This document shows, one piece after another, positions 15,610-23,476 of a DNA stretch of 55,170 nucleotides. The notes beneath the pieces are model-generated. The model was not told where the DNA came from and made no database searches. It saw nothing but the letters and a program-made list of their open reading frames with translations. Within the stretch, counting starts at the first letter, position 1; every line of letters begins with the position of its first letter. The stretch is from Cyanobium sp. NIES-981 (GTDB taxonomy: Bacteria; Cyanobacteriota; Cyanobacteriia; PCC-6307; Cyanobiaceae). Where the stretch lies: positions 1 to 55,170 of the forward strand of contig CAMDLO010000008.1 in the NCBI GenBank assembly GCA_945901765.1. The letters are read 5' to 3'. The position numbers were made by a program, and so were the translations under genes.

Positions 15610-16785
15610 TTAGGCGGACTGGGCCAGAGCGAGAGCCGCGCCGAGTCCACCGCGCACATCCTCCGGCGCCAATCGACCATCGTTATCGGTGTCGAGAGCA
15701 GCAAAGACCGCGTCGCTGCCCAGCCACTCCTCACGGGTGATGCAACCGTCGCCATCGAGATCATTCAGCAGGAAGATCTCGTGCACCGCATGGCCGAAAG
15801 CGGCACCGCCCTCCAGCTCCGCCAGGCGATGGGCCAGCTGGGCCTCCAGGGTCTCGATCGCCTTGCAGAAGCCGCGAATACCTTCGTCCAGTTTTTCAGT
15901 CGCCATTTGATCAGCAGACAGCATCTCCCGGAACGAGGGCTCGTCGAGGTGGATCTGGGCCTCGGTGGGAGCAGGGTCGAAAGCATTGAGCTTGCGCTCG
16001 AGCACCCCATCGGTGCGGCGCAGTTGATCGAGCAGCGCCGGCGAGATGGTGAGCAGGTCACAGCCGGCCAGCTCGATAATCTCATCGGTGTTGCGGAAAC
16101 TGGCGCCCATCACCTCCGTTTTGTAGCCATACGTCTTGAAATAGTTGAAGATCTGGGTGACCGAAACCACACCGGGATCCTCTGGACCGGGATAGCTGTC
16201 ACGACCGGTACTCTTCTTGTACCAGTCGAGAATTCGGCCAACAAATGGAGAAATCAGCGTAATGCCGGCTTCGGCACAGGCCACCGCCTGAGCAAAGCTG
16301 AACAGCAGCGTGAGATTGCAGTGAATACCTTCTTTTTCGAGCTGCTCAGCCGCACAGATCCCCTCCCATGTGGAGGCCACCTTGATCAGCACGCGGTCGT
16401 TGCTGATGCCAGCGGCGTTGTAGAGACCGATCAGCTTGCGTGCCTTGGCGATGGTGGCTTCGGTGTCATAGCTGAGGCGTGCATCCACCTCAGTCGAGAC
16501 CCGGCCGGGCACGATCTTGAGAATCTCCTTGCCAAAGGTCACACAGATTTCATCGAGGGCTTCTCGCACCACCGCATCAGCGCCGGCATCAGCACCGACC
16601 GCCTGGCGCGATTCCCGCAGCGAGCGGTCGATCAGCTCCTGATAGGCGGGAATCTGGGCTGCCGCCAGGATCAGTGAGGGGTTGGTGGTGGCGTCACGAG
16701 GGGTGAACTGGCGAATCGCGTCGAGGTCACCGGTGTCGGCGACCACAACGGTCATGGCGGCGAGTTGATCGAGAAGGTTGGCCAT
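15610..16785 (-). CDS. tal: Transaldolase with C-terminal EF-hand pair
   Basis: Transaldolase moves a dihydroxyacetone unit between sugar phosphates in the pentose phosphate pathway. The start [20 protein letters not shown] and the motif [15 protein letters not shown] are diagnostic of the TalB type; the Schiff-base Lys lies in [14 protein letters not shown], and [14 protein letters not shown] follows. The core ends near residue 325; it is followed by two EF-hand loops, [15 protein letters not shown] and [15 protein letters not shown], both with the DxDxDG pattern, so Ca2+ binding is likely. The product is 391 residues against about 316 for E. coli TalB. The upstream gene is ftsI. Confidence 0.93.
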
Positions 16786-16938: not shown

Positions 16939-18753
16939 TCAGCGGGGGGGCTTGGCGGCGCCCAGCTCAGCAGGGCGGGAAGGGGGAATGCTCTCGAGCA
17001 CCAGCAGCGCATCGATGATCTGGCGAGCGACCGGCGCTGCCACCGTCGATCCGTAGGCATTGCCGCCCTTGGGCTCATCCACCACGACGAGCACCACATA
17101 ACGGGGATCATCGATGGGGAGATGGCCCACGAAACTGGTGATCAGGGCGCCAGGGATATAAACACCGCGTTCAGCCTTCTGGGCCGTGCCGGTCTTGCCA
17201 CCGATCCGGTAGCCAGGCACGCGGATCCCCAGGCTGGCGCTGTTGGTCACCACCGTCTCCATCCAGCCCATCACTGTGCGCGTCACCTGCGGGTCCAGCA
17301 CCTGCAGACCACTGGCTCGCGGTGCAGGCGCCAGGGCGTCACCAGAACGCATCCCGCGGGTGATGTGCGGACTGACCAGCCGGCCGCCGTTGGCGAGCAT
17401 GGCGTGCAGCTGCACGAGCTTGAGCGGGGTGAGCGAGAAGCCCTGGCCGAAGGCCGCCACTGCCGGTTCGATCGCATGACCGGTGAACACGTTGCGGGGC
17501 TTCAGTTCGCCGGCAACCGCGCCAGGCAGATCCGTATCCGGCCTGGTGTCGATGCCGATCGTGCGCAACCAGTGCCAGAAGCGATCGCGCTTGATGGTGG
17601 CCATCGCATTGACCATGCCCACATTGCTGGAGACTTCCAGCACCGTTGGAAAATCGATCACCCCATTGCCCTGGCGGTTGGCGTTGAAGATCGGCCAGCC
17701 ACCGATGCTGAGCTGGCCGCTGTCGTGGACCGTGCCCTTGGGATCGATGCCCTTTTCCTGCAGAGCGATGGCCAGATTGATCGGCTTGAAGGTCGATCCC
17801 GGCTCGTAGAGATCCTGCACCGACCACTCCCGGAACAGGGCGGGGCTGGCCTGCCAGAACCGGTTCGGGTCGTAGCTGGGGTAGGACGCCAGGGCGAGCA
17901 TCTCGCCGTTGCGAACGTCCATCACCAGCGCCGCAGCCCGTTTGGCACTCCATTTCTTCACCTGATTGGCCAGTGCCTGCTGGGCCACCTGCTGCAAGCG
18001 GGCATCCAGGGTGAGCTGCAGCCTCAGGTCATCCCCGTACAGGGAGCCCGCACTGAGTCCTTCCGGCAGCGGCGTGCCGTCGGCACCACGCCGCATGCTC
18101 ACCGTCGTTTCCTGACGCTTGAGATCCCGGTCCTGGCTCTGCTCGAGTCCGGCCTGGGGGACGCGCTCGAGGTTGAGGAAGCCCACCACATTGGCAAACA
18201 GACTTCCCTGGGGATAGATCCGCTGTGGGTAGGCCTCCAGATCAAGGCCGCTGATGCCGAGGCGACCGATGCGGGCGGCGGTTTCGGGATCGATATCCGA
18301 GCGGAGCTTCACGCCGCTGCGGCGGCCGGCCATGGTCTCGAGCAGGCTGTCGGCAGGAACCGCCAGAACCACCGCCAACCGAGCGGCCACCTCTTCAGGG
18401 CGACGAACCTTCTGGGGATCATCACCGGGAAAATTGAAATAACGGGGGTGAGCCCAGAGCGTGAATCGCTCCTCATCCAGGGCCACAAGCCGGCCGGCCC
18501 GATCGACGATCGTGCGGCGCTTGCCCAGCGGACGCTCGGACTGGGTCTGAATGGCGCGGGCCTTGGTCTGCAGATTGCGGGTGTCGACCACCTGCAGCCA
18601 GGCCAACCGCACAGCGAGACCACCCAGACCGAGGCTGAGCAGCAGATAGACCGCAACCAATCGGTGGTTGGGCAGGGTCTGGATCGGCACAACCCTGGAG
18701 CGACGCTGTGCCCGGGGCGCGCCGGTGGGTCTGGTGCCCGGAGCCTGGGCCAT
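16939..18753 (-). CDS. ftsI: Penicillin-binding protein 2 / FtsI-type septal transpeptidase
   Basis: This class B PBP cross-links septal peptidoglycan. A basic N-terminus precedes one membrane anchor (LVAVYLLLSLGLGGLAVRLA, about 31-50), followed by the pedestal domain. The transpeptidase domain holds the nucleophile in GSTFKPINLA (about residue 318), SSNVGM (about 372) and KTGTAQ (about 518). The 604-residue length is normal. Directly upstream, 5 bp away, is a single-span FtsL-like protein, the usual ftsL-ftsI arrangement. Downstream is tal. Confidence 0.94.
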   Translation of the reverse strand: MAQAPGTRPTGAPRAQRRSRVVPIQTLPNHRLVAVYLLLSLGLGGLAVRLAWLQVVDTRNLQTKARAIQTQSERPLGKRRTIVDRAGRLVALDEERFTLWAHPRYFNFPGDDPQKVRRPEEVAARLAVVLAVPADSLLETMAGRRSGVKLRSDIDPETAARIGRLGISGLDLEAYPQRIYPQGSLFANVVGFLNLERVPQAGLEQSQDRDLKRQETTVSMRRGADGTPLPEGLSAGSLYGDDLRLQLTLDARLQQVAQQALANQVKKWSAKRAAALVMDVRNGEMLALASYPSYDPNRFWQASPALFREWSVQDLYEPGSTFKPINLAIALQEKGIDPKGTVHDSGQLSIGGWPIFNANRQGNGVIDFPTVLEVSSNVGMVNAMATIKRDRFWHWLRTIGIDTRPDTDLPGAVAGELKPRNVFTGHAIEPAVAAFGQGFSLTPLKLVQLHAMLANGGRLVSPHITRGMRSGDALAPAPRASGLQVLDPQVTRTVMGWMETVVTNSASLGIRVPGYRIGGKTGTAQKAERGVYIPGALITSFVGHLPIDDPRYVVLVVVDEPKGGNAYGSTVAAPVARQIIDALLVLESIPPSRPAELGAAKPPR

Positions 18754-18758
18754 CGTGA

Positions 18759-19337
18759 TCAGTAACCGCCTGGAACCTTGGCCAGCCGCAGGGTCCCGGA
18801 CAGGGAGAGTCCCCGGGGCTGGGTGACGGTTGCAGGAGCGTTGAGATAGATCAGTTTCTCGCTGCTGGTGGGCACCAGCCAGCCAGGGCGACGCACTGCG
18901 GCCAGAAAATGCTGCTCCAGCTGGGCTGCGGATTCCTGCATGCGGTGTTCAAGCACCTGGGCGGATTCCAGCTGGTGAAAACGTTCACCCCAACGGTTCT
19001 GCCAGTGAAGCGTCAGAGCACCAAGACCGAGCAGGCAGAGGGTGAGGCCGGCGAGGGTGCCATCAGTGGCCCTGTGCAGGATGCCCAGCAGGGGAGCAGA
19101 TCGGGAGATCGGTCGGCCGCCCAACGATCCCTGGATCAGGGCAAGACCCCGTCTCTGACTGGCATGACGCCTTGCTGCACCGGTCCGTTCGGCCTGGGGC
19201 CTGGACGCTGTGGATGGCCGTGGCAGGTTCGAAGCGACCAATGGATCGGGCAGGCTCTGCGCAAGTGAACCACTCTTGCCGATCGCCAGCAAGGGGGCTG
19301 GGCGGCGCCCAGGACGGAGAGGAGGCTGAGCCGCCAT
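18759..19337 (-). CDS. Single-span membrane protein, candidate FtsL
   Basis: The product has about 192 residues: a basic, Pro/Arg-rich cytoplasmic N-terminus of about 90 residues, one membrane helix (LAGLTLCLLGLGALTLHW, about 93-111) and an external helical part FHQLESAQVLEHRMQESAAQ that could form a short coiled coil, ending in a small beta-like tail. Size and topology match FtsL, and it lies immediately before ftsI. Its ATG overlaps the TGA of the upstream CPBP gene (TGATG). FtsL is poorly conserved in sequence, so the identity is inferred from topology and context. Confidence 0.6.
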   Translation of the reverse strand: MAAQPPLRPGRRPAPLLAIGKSGSLAQSLPDPLVASNLPRPSTASRPQAERTGAARRHASQRRGLALIQGSLGGRPISRSAPLLGILHRATDGTLAGLTLCLLGLGALTLHWQNRWGERFHQLESAQVLEHRMQESAAQLEQHFLAAVRRPGWLVPTSSEKLIYLNAPATVTQPRGLSLSGTLRLAKVPGGY

Positions 19338-20731
19338 CAACCTGCCAGCAACACCAGGTTGGCAAAGGTGAGGGTGTTCCAGAGTGCATGCATCAGCACA
19401 CAGGGCGCCAGGCTGGCGCTCTTCAGGCGCAGCCAGCCCAGGCCCAGGCCCAGCACTGCCAGAGGCACCAACTCCCCCAAGCTCACATGGGCCAGTGCAA
19501 AAGCCAGGGCACTGCCCAGCAGGCCGGCAACGGGGCCCCAACGCTGACCGAGCACCGGCAGCAGCACACCGCGAAACAGGGTTTCCTCAAACAGCGGCGC
19601 CAGCACCATCGCGGTGAAGGCGAAGCCGAGCAGGGCCAGGGGGTCATTGGCGGTCAGCACCAGCTCCAGCAACGGGTTGCTGCCACCCGGATCGCCCACC
19701 AGACGTTCCACCACCCAGCTGGCCCCGGCAACAAGCGGAAGCGCCATCAACAGCGTGCCGGCCGCACTCCGCAGGCATGGTCCGAGAGGGCGCCAGCGCC
19801 ATTGCAGCCACCCCCCCGGCGGCACCGGCGGCGGGCAACCAGCCAGCTGAACCCGCAGGATCGCCAGCGGCGGCAGCATCAGGCCGAGATACAGCAGCAC
19901 CACCTGCAGGCTCTGCTGGCGCATCGGACTGGCGGCCAGAGGACTGAGCAACTGCGTGCTGAGCGGGCCAAGCAGCACGGCGATCAGCTCGCCGAGCACG
20001 ACGAAACCGCCGGCGATCAGCAGGGTCACATCCAGCAGACCGAGTGCCGGACCCTGCAGCGGCGGCAGTGGCAAACGGCGCCGGATCAACTGCAGGAGCT
20101 CACGCAACAGCAGACCAAGGCCGAGCATCAACAGCAGAGATGGCAGCCCGTTCACCGCCAGCAGGCGCCAGAGCGCCAGCCGTTGCCGGACTGGGTTGGA
20201 ACAACCGGCCGGCTCGGAAGCCAGCTGCTCGCAGATCAACCGATCGGTGAATGCAGAGCTGGTCTGCCGCCAAGGGGCCAGCAGGGTTCTGAGCTCGCTG
20301 CCGGAGGTGGCGGCGACCGCAGCGGGGTCCTCGAGGCGATCGAGCAGCAGGCGCTGATCCGGAGGCACAAGCACCGACAGGCGCTCCAGCAGGGCAGCGG
20401 CCTCGATCCGGTCCCCGCGCTGCTGCTGGAGCAAGGCCAACTGCAGCTGCTGATCAGGCTCTGGTGGGCCGACCTGATCCTTCAGCTGCATTCCAAGAGC
20501 TTCGGTCAGGGCCTGCGCGGGGTCCTTTTGCAGCAGCAGGGGCTGCAACCGGGCGGGAATCGCCGGGGCGGCGAGAACCTCCAGCTGCAACTGCCGCAGG
20601 CTGAGGGAATGGTCCACCGAAGGGCGTTCCAGGCTCCCCAGCAGGCCGCTGAGCCAGAGCAGACCGCTGAGCAGCAGGCTCAGGGCCGCCAGCAGCGGGC
20701 GCCAGCCGGGCCCAGGGGAACTCTCGTGCAC
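19337..20731 (-). CDS. CPBP-family intramembrane metalloprotease
   Basis: This 464-residue, GTG-started membrane protein has the CPBP (CAAX protease/bacteriocin-processing) motifs in its C-terminal third: FEETLFRGVLLPVLG (EExxxR), FALAHVSLGE (FxxxH) and LMHALWNTLTF (HxxxN). An N-terminal helix (LLAALSLLLSGLLWLSGLLG) is followed by about 150 soluble, Leu/Gln-rich residues and then several membrane helices. It ends in a TGATG junction with the FtsL-like gene. Substrates are unknown. It is divergently oriented from the phosphatase gene at 20812. Confidence 0.85.
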   Translation of the reverse strand: MHESSPGPGWRPLLAALSLLLSGLLWLSGLLGSLERPSVDHSLSLRQLQLEVLAAPAIPARLQPLLLQKDPAQALTEALGMQLKDQVGPPEPDQQLQLALLQQQRGDRIEAAALLERLSVLVPPDQRLLLDRLEDPAAVAATSGSELRTLLAPWRQTSSAFTDRLICEQLASEPAGCSNPVRQRLALWRLLAVNGLPSLLLMLGLGLLLRELLQLIRRRLPLPPLQGPALGLLDVTLLIAGGFVVLGELIAVLLGPLSTQLLSPLAASPMRQQSLQVVLLYLGLMLPPLAILRVQLAGCPPPVPPGGWLQWRWRPLGPCLRSAAGTLLMALPLVAGASWVVERLVGDPGGSNPLLELVLTANDPLALLGFAFTAMVLAPLFEETLFRGVLLPVLGQRWGPVAGLLGSALAFALAHVSLGELVPLAVLGLGLGWLRLKSASLAPCVLMHALWNTLTFANLVLLAG

Positions 20732-20782: not shown

Positions 20783-20788
20783 ATACGA
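20783..20788 (+). promoter_or_regulatory. Putative -10 element of the tandem phosphatase gene
   Basis: TACGAT at 20783-20788 resembles a -10 hexamer. It overlaps the first ATG (20788), so if used, transcription would begin near 20795 and translation could only start at the downstream GTG (20812). No convincing -35 element is seen. Confidence 0.3.
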
Positions 20789-20811
20789 TGGGCGCGCGCT
20801 GCTCAGGGTTC

Positions 20812-22149
20812 GTGTCCCTCAGGATCGTGCTGGTCCGCCATGGGCTCAGCAGCTTCAACCTCGAGCACCGGATTCAGGGGCGGGACGACCTTTCGGAGCT
20901 GACGGAAGCCGGGGCGGACCAGGCTCGCCAGGCCGGCCGTGCCTTGCAGGATCTTTCCTTCACCGCCGCCTACGCCTCGCCCCTGCGAAGGGCGGCCGAC
21001 ACCGCGACCGTGTTGCTGGAGAGCCACGGGCAGGGCTTCAGCGCGGAGCATCACAACGATCTGCTGGAGATCGACCTGGAGCCCTGGAGCGGGCTCAGCC
21101 GCGATGAGCTACGAGAACGCTTCCCGCAGGAGGAGGCGACCTGGCGTCAGGCGCCGCACACCCTCGAACTGCTCAGGGCTGACGGCAGCACCTACAGGCC
21201 ACTGGCAGACCTGATGGACCAGGCAGGCGCCTTCCACCGCCTGCTGATCGAGCGGCATGCCGGATTCTTGGCAGCCGAGGACGCCACCGTGCTGGTGGTC
21301 GCCCACAACGCCATTCTTCGCTGCCTGATTCTGTCGCTGCTGGGTCTGGGGGCTGAAGGGTTCCGCCGGTTGCGCGTCGACAACGGCTCCATTTCGGTGC
21401 TCAACCTGAGCGAGGGCCCCGCCGGCCTCACCACCCAGGTGGAATCGCTGAACGGCGTCGCCCACCTCGGCACCCCCCTGCCCACCGCCGCAGGCGGAAC
21501 CCGGCTGCTGCTGGTGCGCCATGGCGAAACCGACTGGAACCGTCAGGGGCGATTCCAGGGACAGATCGACATTCCGTTGAACAGCAACGGACGGGCCCAG
21601 GCCGAGGCGGCAGGCAGCTATCTCGCCCCAGTGCCCATCGACCGGGCCTACTCCAGCGTCATGGCCAGACCCCGCCAGACGGCCGAGGCCATTCTGGCAA
21701 GTCACCCCGGCGTGCCCCTCACCACCACCAGGGGGCTTGTGGAGATCGGCCATGGGCTGTGGGAAGGGCAGCTGGAAGAGGAGATCGCTGCGCACTGGCC
21801 GCAGCTGCTGGCCGATTGGAAGCGGGCTCCCCACACCGTGGCGATGCCCGAAGGGGAAACGATTCACGCCGTCTGGGAACGTGCCCTTCACAGCTGGGAT
21901 CAGATCGCCGCCAGCCTGGGCGCCGGTGAAACCGCCCTTGTGGTGGCCCACGACGCCGTGAACAAGACCATCCTCTGCGCCCTGCTCGGCCTCACCGCCG
22001 CGGACATCTGGGCGATCAAGCAGGGCAACGGCGGAGTGACGGTGATCGATTACCCCCAGGGCGGCACCGGCACACCGGTGATCTCCGCCATGAACCTCAC
22101 CAGCCATCTGGGCGGGGTGCTGGATCACACAGCCGCCGGAGCGCTCTGA
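20812..22149 (+). CDS. Tandem histidine phosphatase (phosphoglycerate mutase family) protein
   Basis: Two complete histidine-phosphatase domains are fused. Domain 1 has IVLVRHGLSSFN at the start, an acidic LEIDLEPWSG and the second His in VVAHNAILRC. Domain 2 repeats these with LLLVRHGETDWNRQG, VEIGHGLWEG and VVAHDAVNKTI, so both catalytic pairs look intact. The protein has about 445 residues. Family members include phosphoglycerate mutases, sugar- and phosphoserine-phosphatases; the substrate cannot be told. I prefer GTG 20812 over ATG 20788 because homologous domains begin at SLRIVLVRHG and a -10-like hexamer overlaps the ATG. It lies 4 bp ahead of the dihydroorotase-like gene. Confidence 0.88.
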   Translation: MSLRIVLVRHGLSSFNLEHRIQGRDDLSELTEAGADQARQAGRALQDLSFTAAYASPLRRAADTATVLLESHGQGFSAEHHNDLLEIDLEPWSGLSRDELRERFPQEEATWRQAPHTLELLRADGSTYRPLADLMDQAGAFHRLLIERHAGFLAAEDATVLVVAHNAILRCLILSLLGLGAEGFRRLRVDNGSISVLNLSEGPAGLTTQVESLNGVAHLGTPLPTAAGGTRLLLVRHGETDWNRQGRFQGQIDIPLNSNGRAQAEAAGSYLAPVPIDRAYSSVMARPRQTAEAILASHPGVPLTTTRGLVEIGHGLWEGQLEEEIAAHWPQLLADWKRAPHTVAMPEGETIHAVWERALHSWDQIAASLGAGETALVVAHDAVNKTILCALLGLTAADIWAIKQGNGGVTVIDYPQGGTGTPVISAMNLTSHLGGVLDHTAAGAL

Positions 22150-22153
22150 ACCG

Positions 22154-23476
22154 ATGGGAGCGCCGCTGTGGTTGCGCCAGGTTCAGCTCCTGTCCGGTCC
22201 GGACGACTCAGCGCGGCGCGGCGACGCCCTGATCGATGCTGACGGCGCCCTGATGGGCTGGGGACTGGACATGGAGGCCCGGGCTTCAGAACTGGGGATT
22301 GCGGCGACCGAGGCCGAAGGCTGGCTGCTGGCCCCCACCCTGGTGGATCCCCACAGCGTGCTGGAGCAGCCCTGGGGCAGCCAGCGCGAAACGCTCCATT
22401 CCCTGGCCGCTGCCGCCGCCGCCAGCGGCTACGGCACCGTGGCTCTGCTGCCCTGGGGGTCCCCCTGGCGCGATCGGCCGGGGGCCCTGCAGGGACTGCA
22501 CTGGCCTGAGCCCCTGCAGCTGCAGTTGTGGGGAAGCTTCAGTGAGGCGGGGGAAGAGGCGGAGCTGGCTGCTCACCTGGAACAGCTGGAGGCCGGCGCG
22601 ATCGGCCTGGCCGGCAACGATGTCCTGCCGCCCCTGCCCCTGCTGGAGCGAGGTTTGCTGCTGGGCGAGATGGGGGATCGGCCCGTGCTGCTGGCCCCGC
22701 GACAGGCCGACCTCTGCCATGGCGGCTTTGTGCGCGAAGGGGTGGAGACCCTGCGCGCTGGCTGGCCTCCCGATCCGCACCTGAGCGAGAGCCTGCCGCT
22801 GAGCACCCTGCTTGAGCTGGTGCGCCACCGGCCGGACAGGCGGCTGATCCTGATGAATCTCTCCACAGCCGAGGGAGTGACGCTGCTCAGACAGGCTGCA
22901 GCGACTGCGCCGCCACCGGCGGCCACCGTGAGCTGGTGGCATCTGCTCGCCGACAGCGGCGAACTCGGCGCCTCAACCGACGGCGGCTGGCGGCTGGTGC
23001 CCTCTCTCGGAGGGCCAAACGACCGCGAAGCGCTGCTTTCCGGCCTGGCGGATGGCCTGATCGGCGCGGTGGCCGTGCATCACCTGCCCCTGGATCCCGA
23101 AGAACAGCTCATTCCCCTCGACCAGCGACGCGGCGGGCTGGCGGGTTACGGACCTGCTCATGGTCTGGTGCTCCCTCTCCTCTGGGATGAACTGGTGAAG
23201 CGTCGGGGCTGGCGGGCCGAACAGCTCTGGCGGGTGCTGTGCTGGGGACCGGCCGAACTGATCGGCCAGGCTCCGCCACGGCTGCAGCCCGGCTCCAGGC
23301 GCTGGCTGCTGTTCGATCCAGGAGCCCGCTGGTGGATCAGGGACGACGAGTCGCTCAGCCTGGCGGCCAACCAGCCCGTTCAGGCTGGGGGTTCGATCCA
23401 GGGAATGATTCGAGCCTGCGGGCTCACCGCACCGGATCGCTGGCGGCTGGCGGCAGCAGACTGCCCGACTGGTTGA
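22154..23476 (+). CDS. Dihydroorotase-like protein, probably non-catalytic
   Basis: The 440-residue protein follows the dihydroorotase plan but lacks its metal site. The usual DxHxH strand after PGLID reads PTLVDPHSVLEQPWG here, with only one His; HLSTAEG has become NLSTAEG; the conserved ATDHAPH region reads AVAVHHLPL; and the C-terminal WSxNPA region reads LCWGPAEL. I infer an amidohydrolase-fold protein that is inactive or has another job, like the inactive PyrC paralogues that act as structural partners of aspartate transcarbamoylase. It starts with ATG 4 bp after the phosphatase gene and overlaps lepB tail-to-tail by 53 bp. Confidence 0.7.
   Translation: MGAPLWLRQVQLLSGPDDSARRGDALIDADGALMGWGLDMEARASELGIAATEAEGWLLAPTLVDPHSVLEQPWGSQRETLHSLAAAAAASGYGTVALLPWGSPWRDRPGALQGLHWPEPLQLQLWGSFSEAGEEAELAAHLEQLEAGAIGLAGNDVLPPLPLLERGLLLGEMGDRPVLLAPRQADLCHGGFVREGVETLRAGWPPDPHLSESLPLSTLLELVRHRPDRRLILMNLSTAEGVTLLRQAAATAPPPAATVSWWHLLADSGELGASTDGGWRLVPSLGGPNDREALLSGLADGLIGAVAVHHLPLDPEEQLIPLDQRRGGLAGYGPAHGLVLPLLWDELVKRRGWRAEQLWRVLCWGPAELIGQAPPRLQPGSRRWLLFDPGARWWIRDDESLSLAANQPVQAGGSIQGMIRACGLTAPDRWRLAAADCPTG

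Follow-up and report, generated by a model that had tools for sequence, protein, structure and literature searches.

The question raised by this locus is whether the small membrane protein gene that adjoins ftsI encodes FtsL, a core division protein. FtsL and FtsB are described as absent or undetected in cyanobacteria in the available parts of two papers (PMC7766704, a review, and PMC4748335), and ftsL is described, in the available part of a third, as poorly conserved and assigned by its position before ftsI (PMC8871954). Filamentation is reported to follow the loss of FtsI (PMC7381316). No report of a cyanobacterial FtsL was found among the matches listed in the open-licence PMC literature, and no literature was found for locus tags presumed to adjoin ftsI in S. 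elongatus or Anabaena. The window (the whole stretch of DNA analysed, 55,170 nucleotides from Cyanobium sp. NIES-981) carries the gene, hereafter called X, between an intramembrane protease gene and ftsI. An initial annotation had presented X as a candidate FtsL whose start is fused to the stop of the protease gene, and had suggested that the protease could process or regulate the divisome.

In the window, ftsI (class B penicillin-binding protein; 16939..18753, minus strand) was recognised by its Transpeptidase domain (PF00905, 1.1e-63) and by PF03717 (4.8e-9), and 5 nt separate the stop codon of X from the ATG of ftsI at 18753. The open frame of X as first reported (18759..19337, minus strand) has 192 codons, counted from an ATG that overlaps the stop codon of a CPBP/Rce1-like intramembrane protease gene (19337..20731, minus strand; PF02517, 1.6e-20; motifs EExxxR, FxxxH and HxxxN). 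The encoded protein has a basic disordered N-terminus, one hydrophobic segment, a coiled coil and a tail whose last two residues are Gly-Tyr. The open frame, the single hydrophobic segment, a predicted long helix and the 5-nt gap bear out the description of X as a single-span coiled-coil protein encoded directly before ftsI. Other neighbours in the window are, downstream of ftsI, a transaldolase carrying EF-hand motifs at its C-terminus (15610-16785; a transaldolase also follows ftsI in locus L281), two tandem histidine-phosphatase stretches divergent from the CPBP gene (20788-22149; PF00300, 1.3e-98), and an ORF of 440 amino acids, dihydroorotase-like by eye, for which no Pfam match was obtained at E up to 1 (22154-23476).

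The sequence TGATG is literally present at the junction of the protease gene and X (TGA at 19339-19337, ATG at 19337-19335), but the fusion is not conserved: among 50 loci with a CPBP gene upstream (45 genomes, five of them counted twice), a start codon overlapping the CPBP stop was found in the window alone. In the three closest relatives (L002, L003 and L004), a stop codon closes the X frame between the CPBP stop and X, and a TTG codon located 96-99 nt past the CPBP stop (at 19241 in the window) is common to these relatives and the window. From this comparison, X probably does not start at the ATG that overlaps the CPBP stop, and the true coding sequence is probably 18759..19241 (minus strand), that is, a protein of about 160 amino acids beginning Met-Val-Ala-Ser-Asn-Leu, with its own leader and a gap of about 95 nt after the CPBP gene. 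The TTG start is a strong indication rather than a proof, because nine other relatives (L005-L009, L012-L014 and L016) keep X in an open frame that reaches past the CPBP stop. Translational coupling of X to the CPBP gene, as the initial annotation had it, was rejected, the overlap being unique to the window and the gap being interrupted by stops in three relatives. Nucleotide alignment of the window with the same three relatives also revealed a conserved block in the CPBP-X gap (19260..19297, minus strand), in which two motifs separated by 17 nt precede the TTG codon; the block is a possible promoter or leader element of the ftsL-ftsI pair.

X is a real, conserved gene. A single-sequence search with the window protein matched 41 of 60 genomes at E 0.01, a count that comprises the window's own genome and at least two weak matches (G040 and G045) judged from their position not to be X. 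The sample was then defined by 156 Cyanobacteriia genomes: ftsI was matched in 148 of them at 1e-110 and in eight was not matched, and the region upstream of ftsI could be read in 147, the ftsI of G044 beginning at a contig start. An iterative profile seeded with the window protein had, at convergence, picked up 147 of 180 loci, with several genomes contributing two loci. Of the 147 examinable genomes, 115 have X immediately in front of ftsI; the other 32 do not, and in 31 of these X was found elsewhere in the genome.

The family alignment was used for a whole-genome search of 50 genomes, including the 32 in which X is not adjacent to ftsI, G044 and the eight genomes in which ftsI was not matched. 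One match each was obtained in 44 genomes; the six without a match are five picocyanobacteria (G020, G023, G028, G031 and G032) and G155. The G155 contig breaks off near ftsI, in G020 a diverged X ending in RGY is located between the CPBP gene and ftsI, and in the remaining four (65-81% complete) ftsI was not matched either. Among individual cases, ftsI of G003 is in two pieces and its X match (0.0046) is doubtful, and stop codons occur inside the X match of G080 and G093. Altogether, 155 of the 156 sampled Cyanobacteriia genomes yielded an X, with families f13, f29 and f31 represented among them. Of 22 loci from named cyanobacteria, 20 have X ahead of ftsI (in Calothrix, Richelia, Planktothrix, Roseofilum, Cyanobium and Prochlorococcus, for example); at L361 it is further upstream of ftsI, and at L378 it was not found.

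Three observations concern particular loci. On a contig titled 'Actinobacteria bacterium' (L384), possibly a misnamed contig or one from a related phylum, the gene before ftsI encodes a protein that matches the X profile (4.1e-5) and has SGY as its last residues. Genome G055 has two FtsI-like genes (on contigs C27 and C18; L033 and L191), with X upstream of one only. In family f23 loci (such as L097, L100 and L106), ftsI is preceded by an ORF of about 465 amino acids, Mur ligase-like by eye, and X is elsewhere in the genome.

The order rsmH-X-ftsI, on one strand, is found in cyanobacteria at 15 loci, which belong to 14 genomes of family f26 and one of f20, with RsmH being 36-44% identical to that of E. 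coli over 307-338 positions and its match lying 9-531 nt from X. In E. coli, ftsL occupies this same place. RsmH is near X in these 15 loci only, and the order is not present in the window itself. Comparison was extended to sister lineages, considered here as the non-photosynthetic Cyanobacteriota, with 14 examinable genomes outside family f40 (L257, L261, L262, L264-L266, L269 and L271-L277); G197 (no ftsI match) and G208 (starting at a contig end) were left out. A bitopic ORF precedes ftsI in all 14, with RsmH present at 13 of these loci; in family f40, a bitopic ORF before ftsI was found in none of 10 genomes. X is thus encountered in both of the positions by which an ftsL gene was to be recognised, namely flanked by rsmH and ftsI or immediately in front of ftsI.

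Curated models were of limited use for these proteins. At E up to 1, the window protein matched no Pfam or NCBIfam family, and no curated FtsL model was reached above its cut-off. The X family profile found nothing useful in the PDB (best E 2.2, an unrelated ligase). Among 113 X members, weak matches were obtained to TIGR02209 (8), NF053549 (6) and a T2SS GspM model (10), and Pfam FtsL was absent among the matches listed for them (25 of 69 families). The curated FtsL models are strict, their cut-offs being passed in 14 named control genomes by PF04999 in one and by TIGR02209 in two. Over 98 genomes of the phylum the TIGR02209 cut-off was never reached; matches below it fall on X in G071 (3.6e-4), G137 (0.08) and G148 (0.096), and many others are different coiled coils. 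A clear FtsL elsewhere in the genome, which the initial annotation had named as the finding that would count against X, was looked for in the window's own genome (94% complete) and was found neither by PF04999 (E up to 10) nor by TIGR02209 (E up to 0.1); one rival, a protein of the Slr1601 type discussed below, was found there, and no better FtsL. Matches of TIGR02209 in family f40 were considered as FtsL and rejected, since they carry a IARNNLKMAGEDEVL motif, which we take to be FtsB-like, and there is no FtsI match in their loci.

Profile comparison (HHalign) was more informative. The X profile matched that of the 14 sister-lineage proteins with a probability of 95.9 (P 5.8e-9, score 53), while 200 block-shuffled controls reached at most a score of 24.8 and a probability of 21, and the reversed X profile a score of 15.4 and a probability of 0.96. 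The probability was 96.2 when picocyanobacteria were removed from the X profile, and 95.4-96.4 when, in addition, any one sister sequence was dropped. Picocyanobacterial X alone gave 4.6, its link to the sister proteins running through the other cyanobacterial members (98.4) as intermediates. Against 25 FtsLs of other phyla, X gave 84; when picocyanobacteria were removed it gave 87, and 100 shuffled versions of that reduced profile reached at most 1.5. The sister proteins gave 98.1 against the same 25. The best match of the ten sister proteins scanned, out of 14, was in every case an NCBI FtsL model (5e-7 to 4e-4, all below the curated cut-offs); their Pfam matches, all weak, were to DivIC (4 of 10), FtsL (1 of 10) and FtsL_2 (1 of 10). 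Common ancestry of X with recognised FtsLs was thus found by profile comparison.

The C-terminus of X is unusually constant. The mean column identity of the family alignment is 15%, with few conserved residues. In the window the Gly-Tyr end is encoded at 18762..18767 (minus strand). Tyrosine terminates all 140 distinct X proteins encoded before ftsI, 120 of them with Gly-Tyr; a rough background is given by 109 frames of at least 300 codons in the same loci (frames, not curated genes), of which none ends in Tyr. Of the 44 whole-genome matches, 30 were read to their end, and 26 end in Gly-Tyr and 4 in Ala-Tyr; in G056, G090 and G093 the match stops short of the end of the profile. The end is aromatic in all 14 sister FtsLs, with Gly-Tyr or Gly-Phe in 11. 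The 25 FtsLs from other phyla include a single one with a terminal Tyr, and Gly-Tyr or Gly-Phe ends are absent from them.

Because of the near-universality of X in the sample, the rsmH-X-ftsI order, the sister loci with rsmH, FtsL and ftsI, the profile match to the sister FtsLs and the shared aromatic C-terminus, we consider X to be, with high confidence, the cyanobacterial orthologue of FtsL. The proposal made for the window is thereby upheld, and its extension to cyanobacteria generally, rather than to picocyanobacteria only, is strongly supported.

Similarity alone proves membership of the FtsL/FtsB superfamily and nothing narrower, because FtsL and FtsB profiles overlap (the FtsB-like set used here gave 97 against FtsL of other phyla); the choice of FtsL for X is made on gene order and the shared C-terminus. 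As regards candidates for FtsB, no PF04977 match above cut-off was found in 59 Cyanobacteriia genomes, and three weak matches formed one family (Slr1601-type), whose profile matches 82 of 87 genomes, twice in one of them; the five genomes missed are two of genus g18 and three of family f13. In the window's own genome (G000), the gene of this near-universal bitopic coiled-coil protein is outside the window, on a contig other than that of ftsI (G000:C44:8347-8598, L334). NF052344 ('slr1601 family putative cell division protein') is matched by every one of the 47 members scanned. In Pfam, their most frequent match is to DivIC (10 of 47, weakly), and FtsL models are matched weakly as well (NF049847 by 9 of 47, NF053549 by 8 and TIGR02209 by 5). 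Against the FtsB-like sister set, the Slr1601-type profile gave a modest 30.6 (150 shuffles at most 9.6). The Slr1601-family protein is the best FtsB candidate in cyanobacteria and, on balance, is more likely than not to be FtsB; no mention of slr1601 was found in the literature searched. In the window's own genome, PF04977 matched best (17.5 bits) a coiled-coil protein whose gene adjoins a transport-permease-like ORF; this protein was discounted as FtsB by its appearance only.

The two roles could also be exchanged, X playing the part of FtsB (DivIC) within the superfamily and the Slr1601-type protein being the true FtsL. The matches of Slr1601-type members to FtsL models would fit such an exchange, as would the value of 94.8 given by their profile against FtsL of other phyla, which is above that of X in a pair that has no shuffle control. 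It is nevertheless very unlikely: X stands between rsmH and ftsI at 15 cyanobacterial loci and in the same order in the sister lineages; its profile gave a probability of only 0.6 against 23 FtsB-like proteins of the sister class (a comparison set from f40 whose identity as FtsB is not proven); and the frequency of DivIC among the Pfam matches of the Slr1601-type members argues against these being FtsL. Lower still is the probability that X is a cyanobacterial adaptor that does not descend from FtsL, has become linked to ftsI, and resembles FtsL in its span and coiled coil by convergence. Few conserved residues and a window protein recognised by no curated model are what such an adaptor might present, but the shuffled and reversed controls fall far below the score of X with the sister FtsLs, and the aromatic C-terminus and the gene order are common to both, which makes convergence hardly credible.

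The linkage to the protease gene bears on regulation rather than on identity, as a unit in which the CPBP protein cleaves X and thereby controls division would be compatible with X being FtsL. The order CPBP-X-ftsI was found in all 29 other loci first fetched (L002-L030) and in 51 loci in total, all of families f1 and f11 (some genomes being counted twice), and the catalytic motifs are present in 30 of 31 loci, the exception (L003) having only the last part of the gene on its contig. Against such a unit, tblastn and motif searches found no CPBP gene at 84 other loci for which 1 kb or more of upstream sequence was available (12 more were too short to judge), so that linkage does not follow X wherever it occurs; the overlap is not conserved and a gap of about 95 nt separates the genes in the window; and the transaldolase genes after ftsI in the window and in L281 show that neighbours at this locus need not share a function. 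For a CPBP protein that processes or regulates the divisome, as suggested initially, adjacency in families f1 and f11 is the only positive evidence, and we regard the unit as unlikely. RasP, the Bacillus protease linked to FtsL, is a site-2 metalloprotease, a class other than CPBP.

With X taken as FtsL, its predicted structure can be compared with that of a characterised FtsL. Structure prediction of the window protein with AlphaFold2 (alignment of 113 rows) gave a single long helix covering residues 82-148 of the 192-codon frame (18894..19094, minus strand), read as a membrane span followed by an external coiled coil; block means of pLDDT are 91-98 over residues 81-150, while the whole model has a mean pLDDT of 73 and a pTM of 0.42. 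One span followed by a periplasmic coiled-coil helix, as looked for in an FtsL, was thus found both in the hydropathy of the relatives and in the model of the window protein, with the orientation in the membrane inferred from the basic N-terminus. After the coil, the family alignment has the consensus GLVPxxPxxxIFLxPxP, and the corresponding segment of the window protein is LVPTSSEKLIYL (residues 154-165; 18843..18878, minus strand), which may occupy the place of alpha2/beta1 of FtsL. In the P. aeruginosa FtsWIQBL structure, as far as the available part of the paper describes it, FtsL is paired with FtsB in a long coiled coil and touches FtsI both with this coil and with a short post-coil helix and strand, partly by prolines (PMC7614612). 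The same arrangement appears the likeliest for X, because it has the long helix followed by the GLVPxxPxxxIFL segment and prolines.

On this model, the short basic N-terminus of X would lie in the cytoplasm and would be followed by one span, a coiled coil in the periplasm, the short segment and the Gly-Tyr tail. By homology, its coiled coil would pair with an FtsB-type partner, for which the Slr1601-family protein is the best candidate; X would bind FtsQ, would use the coil and the post-coil segment to lie along FtsI, and would switch on septal wall synthesis by FtsW-FtsI. We infer its partners, its activating role and its essentiality in this way. The tail is probably a lineage-specific docking end, its tyrosine, beyond the core expected to contact FtsI, being a candidate for the docking point. 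As a tentative proposal, the FtsQ-FtsL-FtsB module of cyanobacteria might be complete, with X and the Slr1601 family, and the fixed Gly-Tyr end might dock onto a partner not so used by the FtsL of other bacteria and could replace the activators of FtsN/FtsA type that most cyanobacteria reportedly lack. Should X be FtsL and Slr1601 be FtsB, the core regulator of septal wall synthesis would be present in cyanobacteria after all; X and slr1601 would then be two concrete genes testable in model species of the group, with the constant tyrosine at the C-terminus of X indicating a defined contact to seek.

Among known systems, the NF052344 slr1601 family resembles X in being bitopic by appearance and in its coiled coil, but it is a separate family (profile comparison 4.1) and the proposed partner. 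CyDiv (All2320) of Anabaena, proposed to be FtsB/DivIC-like, is like X a single-span coiled-coil division protein; according to the available part of its description (PMC4748335), its coiled coil is N-terminal and its span C-terminal, a topology opposite to that of X, and it is among the genes exclusive to filamentous cyanobacteria, unlike X. The FtsL of the rsmH-ftsL-ftsI cluster (TIGR02209 ftsL_broad, NF053549 FtsL_Actino, PF04999) is like X in gene position, in the predicted span, coiled coil and short segment, and in profile similarity via the sister-lineage FtsLs; X differs from it in that the window protein is recognised by none of these three models, in its constant Tyr end and in often being away from rsmH. 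In the FtsL of non-photosynthetic Cyanobacteriota, several members keep an LGM-like motif after the coiled coil, which the cyanobacterial X alignment does not have, whereas the position upstream of ftsI and the aromatic C-terminus are those of X.
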